Shown here piece after piece: positions 5,101 to 24,252 of a stretch of DNA of 39,451 bases; position 1 is the stretch's first letter, and every line of letters starts with the position of its first letter. Origin of the DNA: Chloroflexota bacterium (lineage in GTDB: Bacteria; Chloroflexota; Anaerolineae; DUEN01); assembly GCA_013152435.1 (NCBI GenBank), contig JAADGJ010000034.1, positions 1-39,451 of the forward strand, given 5' to 3'. The notes under the pieces are model-generated. The model did no database searches, was not told the origin of the DNA, and worked only from the letters and a program-made list of their open reading frames with translations. The position numbers and the translations under genes were made by a program.

Positions 5101-8100
5101 CACGGACTACACCGGACAGCTCGTCTCCCAGTCGGCTGTGGCCCAGGCGAACGGCGACTTCTCCTTCGTCCAGCTCAAGCCGGGGACCTACACGCTGATC
5201 GAGACGGATCTGCCCGACTTCCTCAGCACGGCGGCCAACGTGGGGAGCGCGGGCGGGACGGCCGCGGACGCCAACACCATCGCGAACATCTCCCTGGCTG
5301 CCGGCGTGGACGCGATCGACTACCGATTCGGGGATGTGACGCCGCCGCCGGAGGTGACGGTCCAGAAGGACCTGGTGACGCCGGCGGATGGCGAGGCACG
5401 GCCCGGCGATGAGATCGTATTCCGGGTGGTCGTGACGAACACCGGCCCGACCACCCTGACTCAGATCCCCTTGCGGGACGAGTTCGGGGCTGGGCTGAGC
5501 TATCTCAGCGCGACGGTATCCCCCGATGTGGTCGGCGATGGTGTGCTGACCTGGGACGATCTCACGGCCGCGCTGGGGCGTGATCTGGCGCCCGGGGAGG
5601 GGGCCGTGGTTGAGATTCGCTTCCAGGCCCTCAATAGCGGCGCGGGCACGACGAGTTCCGATCCCTCCTGGCTGACCCCTGCCGCGGAGGCGTCCGAGAG
5701 CATCGACCCGGAGTGTGTGCTGAGCATCTACCTGAATCCCACGTGCGATGGGTGGTCGGTGGAGTTTGAGCGGACGGTGAGTGAGCCGATTCCGTGGCGG
5801 GTGAAGGTGGACGGCAGGGTGATCGCGGAGGGGACCACGCGTGGGGATGAGACGGTGAGCGGCACCTGGCCTGCGTGGGTGGACCTGTCGCAGCCGCATA
5901 CCTTCCGAGCGGAGATCAAGGAGGGCTCCCGCTGGTATGGGAAGTCCACGCAGACGCCCATCTGCGAGAAGGAACGTCGGGTTCGCAACGTGGCGATCGT
6001 CACCGGCGCGCTGGATGAATGGGGTGTGACGGCACCGGAGGCCATGGATGACGCGTGGGTGAGCATCGAGAGCGAGCCACCGTCACCGCCGGAGGTGGAG
6101 GTTGAGAAAGAGCTGGTGACGCCGGCGGATGGCGAGGTGGAGCCCGGCGAAGAGGTCGTGTTCCGGGTGACGGTGAAGAACGAGGGTGAGAGCGCCCTGG
6201 TGACGATACCGTTGCGGGATGAGTACGAATCAGAGTGGTTGCGCTATGTGGATGCCTCGCCGGCGCCGGACGCCGTCTCCGATGATGGCGTGCTGACCTG
6301 GGCTGATCTCACGGCCGCGCTGGGGCGCGACCTGGCGCCCGGGGAGCAGGTGAGCATCGACGTTCGGTTCCAGGCGTTGGCCGGGGAGGATCCGTCGGGG
6401 ATGTCGCCGGATCGCTCGGCCTTCGAGGCGGATGCGTCGGGGCAGACCGATCCAGAGTGCGTGTTCAAGATCTACCTGTACCCGCGATGCGATGGGTGGT
6501 CGGTGGAGTTTGAGCGGACGGTGAGTGAGCCGATTCCGTGGCGGGTGAAGGTGGACGGCACGGTGATTGCGGAGGGGACCACGCGTGGGGATGAGACGGT
6601 GAGCGGCACCTGGCCTGCGTGGGTGGACCTGTCGCAGCCGCACACCTTCCGGGCGGAGATCAAGGAGGGCTCCCGCTGGTATGGGGAGTCCGGCAAGACC
6701 CCCATCTGCAAGTTGCGCCATCGCACGCGCAACGCGGCGACCGTCGACGGCGCGGTGGACGAGTGGGCGCAGGTCGCCCCGAGCGCATCTGATGAGGCCT
6801 GGGTGACCATCCGCCTGGCGACGCCCTCTCCGCCCTCGTGCGAGGATCTCTCCCTCCACAGCCTGCGCTTTAAGGAGAGGGACCCGAGCCAGATCCTCGC
6901 CACCATTCGCAACGCCAGTTCCGTGCCGGCCCGGTTGGACCGGGTGACGTTCTACTGGCCCAGCCATCCCGTCTATCCTCGTATGCGGGTGGACTGGCTC
7001 AAGCTGAACAACAAGATCATCTGGGATGGGAGCAGCCGGAAGCATCCGCTCGAGGTGGAGCTGCATAGCTCGGCGCGGAAGCGCACTGTGGCGCCCGGCA
7101 AGGAGGCGAAATGGGTCGCGGATATCGACTACGGCCCCAAGCGGATGGACCAGGCCTTCCGCATCGAGCAGTTCGGCCTGGAGATCGCGGTGAACCTGAG
7201 TGGCATCCAGTGTAAGCTGGAGCTCCCGCCGGAGCCGCAACCTCCGGTCTCCTGCGAGGACTTCACCGTGACCGACCTGCGCTTCGATCCGGATCACGGA
7301 GATACCTTGCTGGCCACCGTGCGCAATGAGACCGGGGTGCCGATCCTGCTCAATCGCATCGTCTTCGACTGGCCAAAGCTCGAGGACTATCCCAAGATGC
7401 AGCTTGACTGGTTCAAGCTGCGGGGGAAGAAGATCTGGAACGGCAACAGCAAGAAGCATCCGACGGATGTGAAGCTCGTCGGCTCGCGGGCCAAGCGTGC
7501 GCTCGAGCCGGGCGAGGAGGCCACGTGGGCGGTGAACATCGATCACGGCCCCAGGCCGCTGGCCAGCTCCCTCCGCATCGAGCAGTTCGGCGTCACCATG
7601 TATGCGCAGGTGGGGGATTCTCAGTGTGTGGCATCTGTCGAGCCCACCGCCTCGCCGACGCCGGAACCTACGTCGACGCCAGAGCCGACAGACACACCGG
7701 AGCCGACGGATACACCGGAGCCCACGGACACACCGGAACCCACGTCGACTCCGGAGTTGACGCCGACGCCGACATCGATGCCCTCTATAGGTGGGCCACC
7801 GGTGGATGGGAACCCGGGCGATGTGGCGGGGGGCGATCAGATCTGCCTCTATCAGGCCGACGATCCCACCCATCAGCTGGCTCGCATTCAGTACATGCAG
7901 GTCGTTGCCAGCGATGGGACGCCGCAGCTTCACGTGGCCCTCATCCTCGACAAATCCTTTGTGGACAACACGTATGGGGCCAATTCGCTGGGGTACTATG
8001 ACAAGAGAGGGCGTCCTAAGCAGCATAAATTCCGGCATCTCGTGGGCAGCGACCACGCACAGCTTTACTTCGAGGACGCCAACGGCCGGCGCGTGCTTGA

Positions 8101-13819: not shown

Positions 13820-16612
13820 CTACCCGGTTTGGCTGCGCAGGCGCTGCTGAAGCTCGTTGAGCAGAACCAGCGCCTGCACGGGCGTCAGGTTGGCGATGTC
13901 CGCCTGGTATAGCTCTCGCAATGTGGCCACGATCACCTCGAGCGGGATAGGAGCATCCGGCGGGTGAGGCAACGAATCGATCAGGCTATCCGAGATGGCG
14001 CGAGCCGGTTGATAGGGGGCAGCCACCTCGCCGACCGAGGGTTTTCTCTCCTCTTCTCTCGCGGCATAGATCTCCCGCCCTCGCTCGGCCTCCTCGCCGG
14101 GCTCGTCAGATGTATGCCCCAGCTCTCGCGGCCCCATCGCCCCGTTGCGCTCCATCTCGGCCAGCACCGCCGCGGCCCGCTGGACGACGCGTTCGGGCAG
14201 CCCCGCCAGCTTGGCAACGTGGATCCCGAAGGAGCGCTCCGCGCCGCCAGATACCACCCGCCGCAGGAACACGATCCCATCGCCCTGCTCGGCCACGGCC
14301 ATCGAGTAGTTGCGCACGGCGGGCAGGTGATCGGCCAGCGCCGTCAGCTCGTGGTAATGGGTGGCGAAGAGACAGCGGGCGCCCAGCGTGTTGTGGACGT
14401 CCTCCACCACGGCCCAGGCGAGACTCATGCCATCGTAGGTGGACGTGCCGCGCCCCACCTCGTCCAGGATGATGAGCGAGCGGGGTGTGGCATGCCGCAG
14501 GATGGCCGCCGTCTCGGCCATCTCCACCAGGAACGTCGATCGCCCCTGGGCGATGTCGTCGGTCGCGCCCACGCGGGCGAAGATGCGATCCACGACGCCG
14601 ATGTGGGCACTTTGCGCGGGGACGAAGGACCCGATCTGGGCCATCAGGACGATGAGGGCGGCCTGCCGGATGTAGACCGACTTGCCGCTCATGTTGGGGC
14701 CGGTGAGGATGATCACCCGCTGGTTTTCGTCCAGATGCAGGTCGTTGGGCACGAAACGCTCGCCGTCCGGGAGCAGGTGCTCGACGACCGGATGGCGTCC
14801 CTCGCGAATGTCGATGACCTCCCCGTCATCCACGGTGGGCTTCACGTAATTGCCGCGCGCGGCGGCCTCGGCCAGCGCGGCCAGCACGTCCAGCTCGGCC
14901 AGGATGCGGGCGGAGTGGATCAACCGGGCGGTGTGCGTCGCCACCTCCCCGCGCACCTGGATGAACAGATCATACTCCCGATCCTTGATCCGGTCGCGGG
15001 TCAGCAGGATGTCCGCCTCCCGGGCCTTGAGCGTGGGCGTGACGAAGCGCTCAGCGTGGGTGATGGTCGCCTTGCGCTCGTATTCGGGGGGGACCTCGTT
15101 GGCGCGGCTGCGCGGCACCTCGATGAAGAAGCCGAAGATGTCGTTGTACCGGATACGCAGGGTCTTGATGCCGGTGCGCTCCCGTTCCTGCGCCTCCAGC
15201 TCCGTCAGCCAGGCCTCGGCCTCCTCCGCGTGCTGGCGCAGCGCGTCCAGATCGGAGTCGAAGCCATCGCGGATGAGGCCGCCATCGCGGACCAGGATAG
15301 GCGGCCTGTCCACGATCGCCTTACCGATCAGCTGGGCGACGTCCTGAAGCTCGTCCAGTTGATCCCGGAGGGCACGCAGTCGTGCCGCCTCCGCTCGCTC
15401 CAGGTGGCGGCGAATGGTCGGGATGCGCTCCAGGGCCCGACGCAGCGCCACCAGGTCCCGCGCGTTGGCGGACCCAAAGCCGACGCGCCCGGCCAGGCGC
15501 TCCACATCGTACAGGCCGTCCAGGGCGGCGCGCAGGTCGTGACGCAGCAGGGCGTCGTTCACCAATGCCTCCACCGCGTCCAGTCGCTCCTGGATGCGGT
15601 CTACGTCCAGTAGCGGCTGGGTGATCCACCGGCGCAGCAGCCGGGCGCCCATGGCGGTGAGCGTGTGATCGAGCACGCTGAAAAGGGAGCCGCGCGAGGA
15701 GCCGTCCCGCAGGTTGAGCGTGAGCTCCAGGTTACGGCGGGTGACCGAGTCCAGGGTCATGTGCTCGCCAGGGCGGTAGGTGCGCAGCTCGGCGATGTGA
15801 GCCAGGCCGGTGCCGCCGGAGAGCGCACCGGTGACGGGGATGTCCCCTAGCTGGCTATCGCGCAGGTAGGCGAGGATGGCGCCCGCGGCCGCCTGGGCCA
15901 GCGGCAGGTCATCGCAGCCGTATCCCTCCAGGGAGGCGACGCCAAAGTGGTCGAGCAGGGTCTGACGGCCGGCGATCGGCGTGCATCGCTCGTCGGCCAG
16001 GGGGGAGAGCCGGGCGGGGCCCAGGGCTCGCAGCCGGGCGGTGAACGGTTCGTCGGATGCCAGCGCGGCGGGGAGGACGATCTCGGCCGGCGCCAGGCGG
16101 GCTAGCTCCTCCTGAAGCGCCCCGAAGGCGTCGTCGCCGTCCAGTTGCGTGGTGATGAACTCCCCCGTCGAGAGGTCCAGCGCCGCCAGCCCGTAGCTCT
16201 CTCGCTCGCGAGCATCCCGGATCACCGCGGCCAGGTAGTTGTTGGCCTTCTCCTGTAGCAGCACGTCCTCGACCACGGTGCCGGGCGTGATGACCCGCAC
16301 GACGTCTCGTCGCACCAGCCGTTTGACCCGGCGGGCGTCCTCGAGCTGCTCCACCAGGGCGATCTTGTGGCCGCGCTCGATCAGCCGGGCGATGTATCCG
16401 GTCACCGAGTGGTGGGGCACGCCGCACATGGGCAGGCGGACTTCCTTGGAGAAGGATCGGGAGGTGAGGACCAAATCTAGCTCACGAGCCGCGATCTTAG
16501 CGTCCTCATCGAACATCTCGTAGAAGTCGCCCAGCCGGAACATGACCAAGGCGTCCGGGAAGCGCGCCTTGATCTCCCGGTATTGGCGGAGCATGGGCGT
16601 GACTTTGGCCAT
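13820..16612 (-). CDS. mutS: DNA mismatch repair protein MutS
   Basis: Recognises mismatches and small loops and starts mismatch repair as an ATPase dimer. I start at the ATG (16612) giving MAKVTPMLRQYREIKARF, with AGGTG upstream, rather than a longer frame from 16657; the protein has 930 aa. The mismatch-reading Phe-X-Glu is seen in GDFYEMF (Phe30, Glu32). The Walker A motif GPNMSGKS lies near residues 638-646, and Walker B LIILDEVGRGTSTYDG near 711-725. A C-terminal region after about 800 (charged, then ANLTPVQALVLLNELQQRL) is the usual dimer or tetramer segment. No mutL is in the window. The opposite-strand open frame at 13964-15613 is a shadow of this gene. Confidence 0.97.
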   Translation of the reverse strand: MAKVTPMLRQYREIKARFPDALVMFRLGDFYEMFDEDAKIAARELDLVLTSRSFSKEVRLPMCGVPHHSVTGYIARLIERGHKIALVEQLEDARRVKRLVRRDVVRVITPGTVVEDVLLQEKANNYLAAVIRDARERESYGLAALDLSTGEFITTQLDGDDAFGALQEELARLAPAEIVLPAALASDEPFTARLRALGPARLSPLADERCTPIAGRQTLLDHFGVASLEGYGCDDLPLAQAAAGAILAYLRDSQLGDIPVTGALSGGTGLAHIAELRTYRPGEHMTLDSVTRRNLELTLNLRDGSSRGSLFSVLDHTLTAMGARLLRRWITQPLLDVDRIQERLDAVEALVNDALLRHDLRAALDGLYDVERLAGRVGFGSANARDLVALRRALERIPTIRRHLERAEAARLRALRDQLDELQDVAQLIGKAIVDRPPILVRDGGLIRDGFDSDLDALRQHAEEAEAWLTELEAQERERTGIKTLRIRYNDIFGFFIEVPRSRANEVPPEYERKATITHAERFVTPTLKAREADILLTRDRIKDREYDLFIQVRGEVATHTARLIHSARILAELDVLAALAEAAARGNYVKPTVDDGEVIDIREGRHPVVEHLLPDGERFVPNDLHLDENQRVIILTGPNMSGKSVYIRQAALIVLMAQIGSFVPAQSAHIGVVDRIFARVGATDDIAQGRSTFLVEMAETAAILRHATPRSLIILDEVGRGTSTYDGMSLAWAVVEDVHNTLGARCLFATHYHELTALADHLPAVRNYSMAVAEQGDGIVFLRRVVSGGAERSFGIHVAKLAGLPERVVQRAAAVLAEMERNGAMGPRELGHTSDEPGEEAERGREIYAAREEERKPSVGEVAAPYQPARAISDSLIDSLPHPPDAPIPLEVIVATLRELYQADIANLTPVQALVLLNELQQRLRSQTG

Positions 16613-16929
16613 AGCACCTGCCTGTTTCGCTCGGAGAATGCAAAGGGATGATAACACCGGGCGAGGAGATGGTCAACGTGGGAAAGCAGCCGGCAGCAGG
16701 AAGCCGGTAGCCGGTAGCGATCGAGGGTGAACTCGAATCCCCGGGGCGAGCGTGGGGCGGACATAGGGCTTTTCAGCGTTCTCACAGACCTTCGTAGGGG
16801 CAAGCCCTTGTGGCTGCCTTGGGTGCCCACAAGGGGTACCCCTACGGCTCGGTTGACGTCCTGCCATAGCCTCCTCATGAATAAGGAGGTGCCTCCCGCT
16901 CTCGGTAGTCCACCTACAAAACAGGAGGG
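16613..16929. other. 317-bp intergenic region between divergent mutS and hicB
   Basis: No gene is supported here. It contains a short iterated AGCCGGTAGCCGGTAGC stretch (16697-16719), with a loosely similar stretch at 17405-17440, and an imperfect inverted repeat at 16793-16846. The hicB ribosome-binding site is at its right edge. Promoters for mutS and hicB must lie here, but I see no clear -35/-10 pair. Confidence 0.6.
16793..16846. repeat. Imperfect inverted repeat with GTAGGGGC ends
   Basis: The left arm begins CGTAGGGGCAAGCCCTTGTG, and the right arm reads CCCACAAGGGGTACCCCTACG. Both share the CCCTTGTGG / CCACAAGG core also found in the element at 39190-39240. About 54 bp, with a short loop around TTGGG. 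It belongs to a dispersed hairpin-forming repeat type, probably non-autonomous. Confidence 0.65.
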
Positions 16930-18900: not shown

Positions 18901-21526
18901 TTAGCCCAGTTCCGATTGGATGGTCAGAGCCTGGCCGGCGGTAAGCTCCAGCGGCTCCGAGAAGACGATCACGATGGTCCCATCCTCCTGGGTAAACGAG
19001 ATGGGGATTGCGTGATCTTCCTTCATGGCCGTTATCGATTGTACCACATGTTGCGTATGCAGGCACAGGATTTTGATCATCAATGAGCCATGGGCCAATT
19101 GAAGGATATCCGTCTGAACGCCCTCGTGGATGTTTTGTGTGAACGTGCCCCACCCGTCGCGGGCGACGAAGGGCGCCCGGAAGTCCTCCGGCGTGATGAT
19201 GGGAGCGAACCCGATCTCGGCTGCGCCCGCGTCGTATCGATATCCCGACGCGGCCTCCAGCAACGCCCACGAGGCCATGGCCCGCACGTAATGGTCGCCG
19301 CACTCGATGTCGTTCCACGGGTTCTGCTTGCGGCCGTCGTAGCGGGCGCGCGTGGCCTCCACGATGCGCAGAGCCTCCTCGACTCCCCCTTCGTACAGCA
19401 GCAGTCCCGCCACCTCGTACTCGATCCCGGTCCACACCTCATCCGAGTAGAGGGTCGGGACCTCCGGCCGGCCGCCCTTGGGCCAGGTGCAGTTCAGCAA
19501 ACCCTGATCGTCCTCAGTGACGAAGACGCGCGGCCGTTGCACGTGGTCGCGGAAGTGCTCCCGGAAGTTGTAGCGGAAGATGGACCGAGCCGCCTGTCGC
19601 ACATGTTCCGGATCCAGCACGTGGCCCAGTCCCAGGATGTGTGCCCACCACTGCCCCAGCAACTGATCTGAGTGGCAGCCAAGGCCCCAGTTCTGCTCCG
19701 GATACCTCTCCAGGTCCACGTCCTGGATGTAGTACTCACCGTTCCACAGCCGATCGTCCAAAGCCTCCCGACCGCGCTCATAGACCGCGCGGCACTCGAC
19801 GGCCAGGTCTTCCTCCCCCTGCAGGCGGGCCATGGCCTCCACGGCCCGCAGCGCGGCCAGGTAGAGCGTGCCGATGAACGTGTTGGCGCCATAGATGGAG
19901 ATGTCGTACGTGTTGGGCTGCTCGCCCTCGATGACGCCGCTCCGGTCTGGGTCGTGCTGAGTCCAGACGTAGTGCAGCGCCCGCTTCACGGAGGGCCAGA
20001 CGTGCACCAGCCAGTCCGCGTCGCCGCATGCTCGATACTCGCGATACGTCTTCAGGATGGCGCCCAGCAGCCCGTCCAGAGCCGGATGGGCCGGGCCGCC
20101 GATCTCGCGATCCCAGACGCGTGGCAGGTACGTGGGGAGCAGCACCCGATGCGGCAGATAGCCCGACGGGTGTTGCTGGATATCCCATTCCGTCTCGCGC
20201 ATGGTGCGCTCCAGCGCTGGGAACAGCCGGGCCAACGCCATCTCGTAGTTCCAGACGTGGGTGCAGTTCAGCGGGCAGCAGCCGCCGATGGGCTCGTGAT
20301 GGGACGTGGAGGCGCCGTGGCATCCCTCGAACCCGAAGAAGCGGCCGTCCTCCGCCCAGAAGCAGGTCGGAGAGCGGATAATGCTCATTTGAGATGTGAC
20401 CGCGTCGATGAGCGCGTAGGGGAGCGTCGTGTCGTAGAACGTGTCACGGGCCGATCGCGTCTGTTCGACCAACCGATTCAGGTTGTCCCGGACGTATTCC
20501 GCCACGTCCAATGCTGACCGGAACCAGTTGTTGTACTGGTTGCCCAGCCAGAACTTGCTCTTCTCATCGTCGAAGTTGAAGAACTGGCGTTGGGACCAGT
20601 TGACGTAGCGATTGGGGAAGTACCATGTGATAAGGAACGTCACGGTGCGGGATTCGCCTGGGGCGAGCGCACAGCCAGCGCGCCGTTCCAGGTGCGACCG
20701 ATCGCGCTGGGCGTGCTGTCGGCCGCGTTACTCAGCCGGCCGTCGGAGCTGAAGTCGGCCCACAGGGCGTCTAGGTCATCCCACTGGGTCAGGTAGGTCG
20801 TATCCGGAGTCAGGGCCGCCAGCGCCATGCTACCGTAGCCGTCGTCGTCCTCGGGTAGGCGGTTCGTCTGCATATGGATGGCGGTCATGTCGCGTAGCTG
20901 GACCAGCGTGTTGAAGTTGCCGCCGTAGAGGAAGCATTCGTTGTCGAAGATCGGCGTGACCCCGTGCCGACCGCGTTCTGGAGCGTGGCGGCCACGGAGG
21001 CCAGCATCACCTCGTCAGTTGGATTCGTCACCGTGATGTGGAAGAGGATGGCGGGGAGGCCGGAGTCTTTCGCGTTGAGTGGGATAAAGGGGCTGAACGC
21101 CTCCATGCTGACCTCGAGTGGCAGCGCCGGATCGTGATATCTCAGCTCGGCGATGGGATATTCGCCGATGAACTCGGTGCCCTCGACGCCCGGGAGTTGT
21201 CGCAACAACTTCCGATGCGCCAGGGGCACTAGATGATCGTTGGACGTCGGCGGCGGCGCTGGACCTTCGACATCATACAGCGCGTCGGATTGGAGTACAT
21301 GGGCGGTCGGCTCCTCGGGCGGGCGGGCTCGCCGCGCCCATGCGGCGAAGAAGGAGTGGGGAACGCACGCCAGGTGGTTCACCTGATTGTGGATCTGCCA
21401 CTGGCGCAGGGAGCCGTCGCCACACAGGGCGATGGTGCCGGTGCCGATGCCGCCCAGAGGCATGGCGATGGCGCGCAGGGATTCGCCTCGATAGATCTTG
21501 CGTTGGCGCGAGACGGATATGGCCAT
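18901..21526 (-). pseudogene. Second GH116 glycosidase (GBA2-like), interrupted by two -1 frameshifts
   Basis: Start MAISVSRQRKIYRGESLRAI (ATG 21526, GGAGGAGG upstream). Frame one runs to the C4 run at 20960-20963. The middle frame runs (VTPIFDNECFLYGGNFN...) to the G4 run at 20660-20663. The third frame runs (ESRTVTFLITWYFPNRYVN...) to the stop at 18901. Adding one base at each run gives 875 aa, close to the 890-aa neighbour. Family residues are present: FGFEGCHG (probable nucleophile Glu), CTHVWNYE, PNTYDISIYG (acid/base Asp) and a C-terminal ECGDHYVRAMASWALLEA. No signal peptide, so cytoplasmic. GH116 enzymes cleave beta-glucosides or beta-xylosides, and GBA2 cleaves glucosylceramide. With intact catalytic residues it is either a sequence-error victim or very recently broken. 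Confidence 0.88.
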
Positions 21527-21567: not shown

Positions 21568-21597
21568 GGTAGCGGCGATTCATGAATCGCCGCTACC
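21568..21597. repeat. 30-bp perfect palindrome overlapping the GH116-1 stop codon
   Basis: GGTAGCGGCGATTCA is exactly complemented by TGAATCGCCGCTACC. On the minus strand it encodes the last residues GSGDS and the stop codon of the upstream GH116. It has the same plan as the palindrome at 13789-13816, so it appears to be a dispersed element that landed at the 3' end of this gene. Confidence 0.8.
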
Positions 21598-24252
21598 TAG
21601 GCCGATGCGCACGGTCAGGGATTGGCCTGCCGAGACCTGGGTCGGCCGCGAGAGAGCGATCTCGACGGATCTCCCCTCCTGCGCGACCTCGATCGCGACC
21701 GGCTGGCAGGCTATCTCCACCCCCGCTGTGCTTACCCTCTTCCCCTGGGAGATCTCGTACCGCATGGCTCGCACGGGGAGCCTGCCTGCCAGGACCTCCC
21801 ATCTCACGACCTGCTCGGCTCCCCGGGTCGTCTGGGTGACGGTCCCCCAGCCGAACGGGGTCGTCCAGATGGATCGGAAAGACTCCGGCTTCCAGCGCGG
21901 CGCGAGTTCCAACGATCCCGACACGGCGGAGTAGTGGAACCCGCCGAGCGCCAACAGGGCTGCCCAGCTCGCCATGGCGCGGGCGTAGTGATGGCCGCAC
22001 TCCTGCTCGTTCCAGGGGTTACGTCGGTGGCCATCGAATCGCGCCCGTATGGCGTCGATCACGGCGAGACCCTCTTCTACCAGCCCCTCGTAGATCATGT
22101 GCGCCGCGGCCTGGTACTCGAAGCCGGTCATCACCTCGCTGAAGTACGGGAACGGCACCCCGGGGCGGTCGCCGTGGGGCCAGGTGCAGATGAGCAAGGC
22201 GCCCTCGTCCGCGAGCGCGAAGGTGCGCATGACGTTCCAGTGATCGTAGAGATCGCGGCGGAAATTGTATCGGAACAGGGACTGCAGCGCGGCCTTCACG
22301 TTCTCCGGCTTCAGCAGGTACCCCAACCCCACGACATGAGCCATATATTGCCCCACCAGCTGGTCGATGAGACAGCCGTTGCCCAATTGGAAATCCGGGT
22401 CGGCCAGATCCGTCTCCCCCATACCGACGCGCAGCTCCGGGCGCGTCTCGTCCAGGCTGGCGGGCGTGCGGATCTGCTGGACGTAGTACTCGCCGTTGAA
22501 GAGGTGCTCATCGATCCATGCGCTGCCCTGCTCGAAGAGCTGACGGCACCGTCGAGCGAACTCCGTGTCTCCAACCGCTTTGGCCATCTCCTCTGCCGCT
22601 CGCAGAGCGCCTAGATACCAGATCCCCGTCAGCGGATTGGGGCCGAAGAACTCGACGTCATAGGTGTTGTGCTGGACGCCCTCCATGATGCCGTCCTGAT
22701 CGGCGTCCCATCCACCCGGCAGCCAGCAATAGCGGATCAGGGATCGGATGGTCGGCCAGTGGCAGGACAGGAAATCGGCGTCCCCGCTGAGCTGCCATTC
22801 CCGATAGCACTTCATCACCACGCCCATCTGTCCGTCCGCGGCCGCGTGGGCCCAGGGCTCCCCGCCCAGAGGCAGGCGCAGACGGAAGCAGTTCATCCCA
22901 CTCTCCAATGTCCCGTGCTCAAGCTCCAGCTCGCGCATGTTGCGGGCCAGCTCGGGGAAGACGAAGGCGGTTGCCTGTTCGTAGTTCCACACGTGGGTGC
23001 ATGAGCCGAAGCAGCATCCCTCGCCGTCACAGCATCCCTCGAACCCGAAGAAGTTCCCGTCCGCCGTGCGGAAGCAAGTTTGGGTGCGCAGGGTGGAGAG
23101 GTTGTTGAGCGCCGCCTCCTTGACCGACTGGGGCAGGTCGGTGGAGACGAACGCGCGCACGAAGCGCAGGCTCTCCTCTTCCAGTTGCGGAAGTTGCGGC
23201 GTCACCTGCAGGGCCACATCCCAGGCATCGGCGTAGCGCTTGGCGCACTCGTTCCCGATCCAGCCGCCGCCCTCATCCAATGTGTTCCATCCGCAGCCGG
23301 CCGCCGTGCGATGGGGGAAGTGCCAGCACAGCAGGAAGGTGATCGCCGTCCGGCTCTTGGGCTCCACCCAGGTGGTCACCCCCAGCGAGCCGATCTGCCC
23401 CTCCCCTTTCGGGCTAGGGGGAACGTCCTCCGGGTCATCGAAGCGGCCGTCCGTGCTGAAATCGTCCCAGAAGGTGAGCAAGTGGCGATTCCAGTGGGTG
23501 GGGCCCCAGGTGCGCCGCCATGATGCCTCCTCGGCCAGCACGACGAGCGCCATGGTCCCATCCTGGGGCGTGCGCGGCGGCACGCGTTCAGAGCGCATGA
23601 GTAACCCACAGAGCGAAGTGCCGTCGTTGGCTGTTCCCCGGCGTACCTCGTTGACGTTGCCGCCCAGCAGGCTGCCCAGCGCCCCGGGCGCGACCGTCGG
23701 GCCGGTTCCGCAGGAGCAATCCTCCATGCCGATGAAATTCAGCAGGCTGCCTGCCACGCTGGCCTGCACGGGGTGGTCGCTTGGGTTCACCAGCACGTAT
23801 CGAAGCACGGCGACGGGCAGGCTCGAGCGATCGGCATCCAGCGGGATCAACGGGTTGAAGGCCTCGAGGTGGACGGTCAGGGGGACGTCCGGGTCGCTGA
23901 GCGTGTATCGAGCGAAGGGATAGGCCGCGTCCAGGGCCACATGGCGCATCCTGGGCAGCCCCGCCGTGGGATTCCCGACGCCGAAGCTGCCGCTGTATGG
24001 CGGCTGGAGCACCCCTTCGAGCGCTCTCGTCACCGCGGGGCCTCCTTCCGCCTGGGCGCGCAGCGCGAAGAACGTGTAAGGCGGCGTGAGCCCCTTGGCC
24101 GGGCGGTTGAAGATCTCGAAATCGCGTAGCTCGGCGCGTCCCCCCAGTGAGATCGTTCCCGTGCCTATGCCGCCCAGGGGGAAAGCGATCTCCCGGAGCG
24201 TTTCTCCTTCATAATGGGTCAGTACCGGCCAGATCGTGGAGGGATCGGACAT
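21580..24252 (-). CDS. GH116 family glycosidase (beta-glucosidase / glucosylceramidase-like)
   Basis: 890 aa; ATG 24252 with GAGGA seven bases upstream. The N-terminal beta-sandwich domain (to about residue 330) starts FPLGGIGTGTISLGG, a typical GH116 opening. The (alpha/alpha)6 barrel follows: FFGFEGCC with Glu405 as probable nucleophile, GSCTHVWNYEQA, and HNTYDVEFFGPNP with Asp532 as acid/base. The 127-residue spacing equals that between Glu335 and Asp462 of the archaeal SSO1353 enzyme as I recall it. The C-terminal ECGHHYARAMASWAAL is conserved. There is no signal peptide, so it should act on imported glycosides. It is fourth after the two permeases and the DUF624 gene and is followed by a second GH116. 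The last five residues come from a palindromic element. The exact substrate cannot be read from sequence. Confidence 0.93.
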   Translation of the reverse strand: MSDPSTIWPVLTHYEGETLREIAFPLGGIGTGTISLGGRAELRDFEIFNRPAKGLTPPYTFFALRAQAEGGPAVTRALEGVLQPPYSGSFGVGNPTAGLPRMRHVALDAAYPFARYTLSDPDVPLTVHLEAFNPLIPLDADRSSLPVAVLRYVLVNPSDHPVQASVAGSLLNFIGMEDCSCGTGPTVAPGALGSLLGGNVNEVRRGTANDGTSLCGLLMRSERVPPRTPQDGTMALVVLAEEASWRRTWGPTHWNRHLLTFWDDFSTDGRFDDPEDVPPSPKGEGQIGSLGVTTWVEPKSRTAITFLLCWHFPHRTAAGCGWNTLDEGGGWIGNECAKRYADAWDVALQVTPQLPQLEEESLRFVRAFVSTDLPQSVKEAALNNLSTLRTQTCFRTADGNFFGFEGCCDGEGCCFGSCTHVWNYEQATAFVFPELARNMRELELEHGTLESGMNCFRLRLPLGGEPWAHAAADGQMGVVMKCYREWQLSGDADFLSCHWPTIRSLIRYCWLPGGWDADQDGIMEGVQHNTYDVEFFGPNPLTGIWYLGALRAAEEMAKAVGDTEFARRCRQLFEQGSAWIDEHLFNGEYYVQQIRTPASLDETRPELRVGMGETDLADPDFQLGNGCLIDQLVGQYMAHVVGLGYLLKPENVKAALQSLFRYNFRRDLYDHWNVMRTFALADEGALLICTWPHGDRPGVPFPYFSEVMTGFEYQAAAHMIYEGLVEEGLAVIDAIRARFDGHRRNPWNEQECGHHYARAMASWAALLALGGFHYSAVSGSLELAPRWKPESFRSIWTTPFGWGTVTQTTRGAEQVVRWEVLAGRLPVRAMRYEISQGKRVSTAGVEIACQPVAIEVAQEGRSVEIALSRPTQVSAGQSLTVRIGLGSGDS

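Follow-up and report, generated by a model that had tools for sequence, protein, structure and literature searches.

Two tandem units in a single large open reading frame of a Chloroflexota bacterium carry a core of 204 bases that is nearly identical between them, whereas the sequence on either side has clearly diverged, and segmental gene conversion between the units, over a tract of about 204 bases, is very probably the cause. Homology between the units extends along their whole length; homogenisation, at synonymous as well as replacement sites, is seen in the core alone and stops abruptly at its edges. We infer from this pattern the recombination step itself, together with its dependence on RecA-type recombination. 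A preliminary description of this DNA had left the choice between local gene conversion and strong constraint at the nucleotide level; the first of these is supported by the homogenisation of silent sites within sharp limits, and the second is not supported by the several lines of evidence given below. The features discussed are listed in the table, with positions referring to the window, by which is meant the whole 39,451-nucleotide stretch that was analysed.

Table. Features of the repeat gene and their positions in the window
Feature	Positions	Strand	Remarks
Open reading frame, 2115 aa	2126-8473	+	Holds both units and both cores
Tandem unit 1	5339-6079	+	DUF11 interrupted by a small Ig-like domain (alignment, AlphaFold2 model)
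Inserted Ig-like domain, copy 1	5714-5971	+	86 aa, no Pfam match above cut-off
Near-identical core, copy 1	5744-5947	+	Proposed conversion tract, 68 codons
Tandem unit 2	6080-6811	+	Layout as unit 1 (alignment)
Inserted Ig-like domain, copy 2	6458-6715	+	
Near-identical core, copy 2	6488-6691	+	5 differences from copy 1
Neighbouring tandem domain d1	6836-7219	+	Within-gene control, 128 codons
Neighbouring tandem domain d2	7250-7633	+	Within-gene control, 128 codons

The 2115-aa protein is organized with a hydrophobic, signal-like N-terminus, beyond which no segment exceeds the hydropathy threshold applied, followed by a PQQ_2/BamB-type propeller, SdrD_B (prealbumin-like) repeats, the DUF11 units, a tandem domain pair (d1 and d2), a Thr/Pro/Glu-rich linker, and a C-terminal part. 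Pfam matches are to the propeller, to SdrD_B in five stretches, and to DUF11 (PF01345) in two stretches, the last with a score of 52.5 bits against a curated cut-off of 24.6. No Pfam best stretch is reported for the d1/d2 pair, which is also present in the congener G001, and the linker is encoded by a short tandem repeat (18 and 36 bases) at 7656-7756. The Pfam matches listed for the protein include the stalk-type SdrD_B and DUF11 domains and no named adhesive domain. This architecture most likely belongs to a secreted or surface-exposed fibrillar protein with a stalk formed by the DUF11 and SdrD_B domains, and, by analogy with the DUF11 and SdrD_B proteins cited below, it is probably an exported fibre. 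Elsewhere in the window, a 57-base repeat at 79% identity (20320-20376 and 23032-23088) lies between two minus-strand frames matching the GH116 catalytic region (18901-20643 and 21580-24252), and a MutS-type gene (13820-16657, minus strand) is situated ∼5 kb from the repeat gene, probably by coincidence.

A recount of the two cores bears out the five differences in 204 bases given in the preliminary description, at a spacing of exactly 744 bases. The differences (5817, 5824, 5899, 5908, and 5942 in copy 1 numbering) comprise three synonymous changes and two amino-acid replacements. Four mismatches abut 5744 on the upstream side and another four abut 5947 downstream, and around the core the units are ∼70% identical (69.5% upstream of it, where unit 2 shares 60% amino-acid identity with unit 1). 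The units had been described as 744 bp long, and the spacing of the cores agrees with this, but other homologous blocks are spaced by 741 and 747 bases as a result of small in-frame indels; the blocks beyond the core indicate that the units are homologous throughout, small indels apart. With a repeat finder, the pair appears as one repeat of 300 bases (86% identity), accompanied by two further blocks at 76% and 82%.

The preliminary description had proposed comparing synonymous sites inside and outside the core, and this comparison gives a Ks of 0.065 and a Ka of 0.013 within it (68 codons), against 0.69 and 0.33 in the rest of the aligned units (169 codons), in line with the clear flanking divergence already noted there. 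Amino-acid constraint alone is rejected as the explanation, because synonymous divergence is ten times lower inside the core than outside. Where both copies encode the same residue with a degenerate codon, the codon is identical in 58 of 61 cases inside the core and in 65 of 97 outside (Fisher test, P = 2e-5), and chance identity from codon usage would account for about 31 of the 61. A maximal-segment permutation over all nucleotide columns reaches the observed value in none of 20,000 shuffles; with silent codons only it is reached in 93 of 100,000, which is significant but not extreme. Outside the core no further mosaic is significant (permutation P of 0.37 for the upstream blocks and 0.51 for upstream and downstream sequence together), and thus one tract is seen and not a repeated pattern. 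Repeated conversion along the whole unit is rejected on the same upstream permutation, the silent identities of the upstream blocks being 18/21, 8/16, 16/19, and 10/21. Foreign origin of the core was also considered and rejected, as its codon usage and GC3 match those of the rest of the gene, as was a third donor copy, since no further copy of the segment is present in the genome assembly.

The draft status of the assembly raises the question of whether the units were duplicated, collapsed, or mixed during assembly, and the window is contig C34 of a 149-contig, 4.97-Mb draft whose contamination is estimated at 4.02; moreover, the contig of the congener breaks at the equivalent place. Nonetheless, the copies differ at five sites, the longest exact run common to both at the 744-base spacing is 74 bases (starting at 5825), and the copies have different flanks at either end. 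The length of this exact run and the differing flanks make a simple false duplication unlikely, and an assembly artefact of any of these kinds is very improbable, although a whole unit may possibly be missing or extra in the assembly.

Strong constraint on the nucleotides themselves, through RNA structure, an overlapping gene, or a regulatory site, is extremely unlikely to be what holds the cores identical. Conservation is higher in the inserted domain than in the sequence preceding it, with amino-acid identities between the window and G285, another genome of the class, of 0.63 and 0.34-0.39, respectively, and selection thus adds to the amino-acid identity of the copies. However, synonymous sites of the domain are strongly diverged wherever else they can be compared: the proportion of synonymous differences in the core (ps) is 0.65-0.82 for all pairs among the window, G285, and the Caldilineaceae locus L007, except the window's own pair. 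The two cores of G285 have 64% of their residues in common and a Ks of 1.8-2.1, showing that the family does not conserve these nucleotides. Opposite-strand frames of 112 and 146 aa do span the two cores and have ends at 5728 and 6472, a distance of 744 bases, but frames of such size are numerous in a window of 64% G+C. RNA structure in the core was rejected, since the predicted fold is weaker than that of shuffled sequences (z = +1.71) and Rfam gives no match in the window at gathering thresholds, and the ordinary codon usage of the core likewise argues against constraint.

Comparison with the congener, which is one further genome of the genus with an incomplete copy of the gene, bears on the age of the event. 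At the amino-acid level, the d1 and d2 domains group by position, with identities of 0.60 (d1) and 0.58 (d2) between orthologues and of 0.44 (window) and 0.42 (congener) between paralogues. Their synonymous sites are not grouped by position, with a Ks of 0.80 between the window paralogues, 1.07 and 0.82 between orthologues, and 1.47 between the paralogues of the congener; the C-terminal part has an orthologue Ks of 0.94. The orthologue values of 0.82, 0.94, and 1.07, which come from three other segments of the gene, the core of the congener being missing, far exceed the core Ks of 0.065, and from this difference the homogenisation of the core looks younger than the species split. Within this genome, Ks values of 0.7-0.8 could lie close to a plateau imposed by shared codon usage, which leaves the ratio of the age of the tract to that of the units uncertain. 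Over 48 codons from 5924, which include the last 8 of the core, the window copies have a ps of 0.34 to each other and of 0.69 and 0.58 to the congener; the closer relationship within the window suggests that duplication of the units, or older exchanges between them, may also post-date the split. The congener contig (G001:C121; L004/L047) includes just the 3'-terminal 24 bases of the core before it stops, and this stop may be an assembly break at the repeat or chance; protein and DNA searches of G001 found of its core only this stump at the contig end.

By gene conversion, the present arrangement would have started from an old tandem pair of units, in each of which a small Ig-like domain sits in DUF11 ahead of the closing strands. 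The units would have diverged first, and a segment of about 204 bases from one copy, with either as the donor, would later have overwritten that of the other by homologous recombination with no net change in unit number, the five point differences having gathered since. A distinctly unlikely route to the same end is unequal crossing over in two steps, in which the array gains a hybrid unit and later loses one, the exchanges falling at the two edges of the core. The units are indeed tandem and in register, and changes in repeat number by intragenic recombination are proposed for periscope-type surface proteins (PMC8201768), but two exchanges and a transient unit are required, and no intermediate is seen. 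The end product would equal that of gene conversion, and a single genome cannot separate the two.

The proposed conversion tract falls within the inserted Ig-like domain and covers 68 of its 86 residues. Alignment shows that the units of the window follow DUF11 up to a strand ending in RFQAL, continue into an extra stretch, and then resume with the closing strands. Seven DUF11-like stretches were located in the Caldilineaceae locus L007, of which six, assigned by eye and alignment and not by scanning, were used in the alignment for this layout and for structure prediction; in G034, too, a DUF11-like stretch is found without the extra stretch. The AlphaFold2 model of unit 1 (9 sequences; mean pLDDT of 86.6 and pTM of 0.62) places strands at residues 6-97, a low-confidence linker at 102-124, a separate seven-strand domain at residues ∼129-205, and the closing strands at 214-243. 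Modelled alone (3 sequences), the inserted domain again has seven strands with a mean pLDDT of 90.7; four of the five models are at 90.1-90.7 and one is at 51.1. The tract leaves out the first ten codons of the inserted domain, and in these the copies have diverged, with 6 of 10 residues identical; this suggests that the domain was probably present in both units before the event.

The inserted domain has few recognizable relatives. The best Pfam match of the window copy is to DUF7414, at 13.3 bits against a threshold of 27, and a sequence search of solved structures gave nothing convincing (best E of 0.0048 over 24 positions). A Foldseek search of the PDB with the domain alone returned no matches at E ≤ 0.001, with glycosidases frequent among the weaker matches listed. 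With the whole unit, the fold search gave 73 matches at E ≤ 0.001, and among the 50 of these that are listed, 49 have an rmsd above 18, and the other, with an rmsd of 3.2, is the CLIPPER domain of a fibrillar adhesin (9ifr). Among the titles and abstract openings listed in literature searches, there was no publication on the gene or the inserted domain. By inference, the domain could decorate the stalk or bind something. A more specific proposal, which is tentative and rather unlikely, is that it is a binding module whose copies are kept alike by recombination, leaving the fibre bivalent while the DUF11 stalk drifts.

Profile searches indicate that the inserted domain is rare, with matches in four of the 396 genomes sampled from the class (G000, G285, and G340, with a weak and partial match in G136 at E 6.5e-4), one of which is the genome studied here, and in 1 of 400 genomes of a phylum sample, again this genome; both counts are lower bounds, with a limited number of candidates scored per genome (at most 13 in the listed matches). 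The congener is outside the four class matches, with only its stump detected at E 0.02. There were no matches to the domain in a plasmid collection at E 0.01, and none of 31 pattern matches in viral contigs held. Of 29 pattern matches in a collection of genome contigs, one locus, from a Caldilineaceae MAG, was retained; it shares coordinates with the G340 match, and G340 belongs to the same class as the window. Its sequence (L007) codes for one copy of the domain, near the N-terminus and outside DUF11.

The closest parallel is in G285, in which the domain occurs twice in a 1778-codon open frame (L046), both times behind the corresponding DUF11 strand. This position is common to two genomes that belong to different families of the class. 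The first G285 copy is followed by an SdrD_B-like insertion and then a DUF11-like closing segment; after the second, no closing segment is seen and the next domain starts directly, so that the nested layout is present in both units of the window and in one of the two in G285. The SdrD_B-like domain (L046:3098-4120, minus strand), recognized by eye, seems to sit as an insert behind the Ig-like domain, giving a double insertion.

Homogenisation by gene conversion is a known process, of which the present case is one further instance. It nevertheless illustrates clearly how recombination can homogenise a single domain while the parts of the modular protein around it diverge. An external control is provided by the diverged pair of G285 and a partial internal one by the neighbouring tandem pair d1/d2. 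The case also draws attention to a small and rare domain, lying within DUF11, that is absent from Pfam.

Segmental gene conversion is known in bacterial antigens such as vlsE of Borrelia burgdorferi (PMC4534519), and as described for that system, a short tract of one copy overwrites the matching tract of another and yields a mosaic product. The present case differs from vlsE in that the exchange is between two domains of one open frame, a single tract is involved, and its effect is to homogenise; no silent cassettes were found, as the assembly contains no further copy, and there is no sign of antigenic switching. The protein shares with the periscope proteins described in PMC8201768 its large size, surface type, tandem folded domains, and local stretches of very similar DNA that could recombine, but it has two units, near identity extends over only 204 of ∼740 bases, and in place of the high identity over the whole unit that marks periscope proteins there is 86% over 300 bases and 76-82% in two blocks. 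DUF11 and SdrD_B are termed stalk domains of fibrillar adhesins (PMC9210967), and in Litorilinea aerophila, also a member of the Chloroflexota, a protein with 49 DUF11 domains, GhlA, is described for grappling-hook-like filaments (PMC13319060). The protein described here resembles GhlA and the fibrillar adhesins of these accounts in its tandem DUF11 domains and very large size, although it has two DUF11 stretches, each broken by an Ig-like domain, alongside SdrD_B repeats and a propeller.
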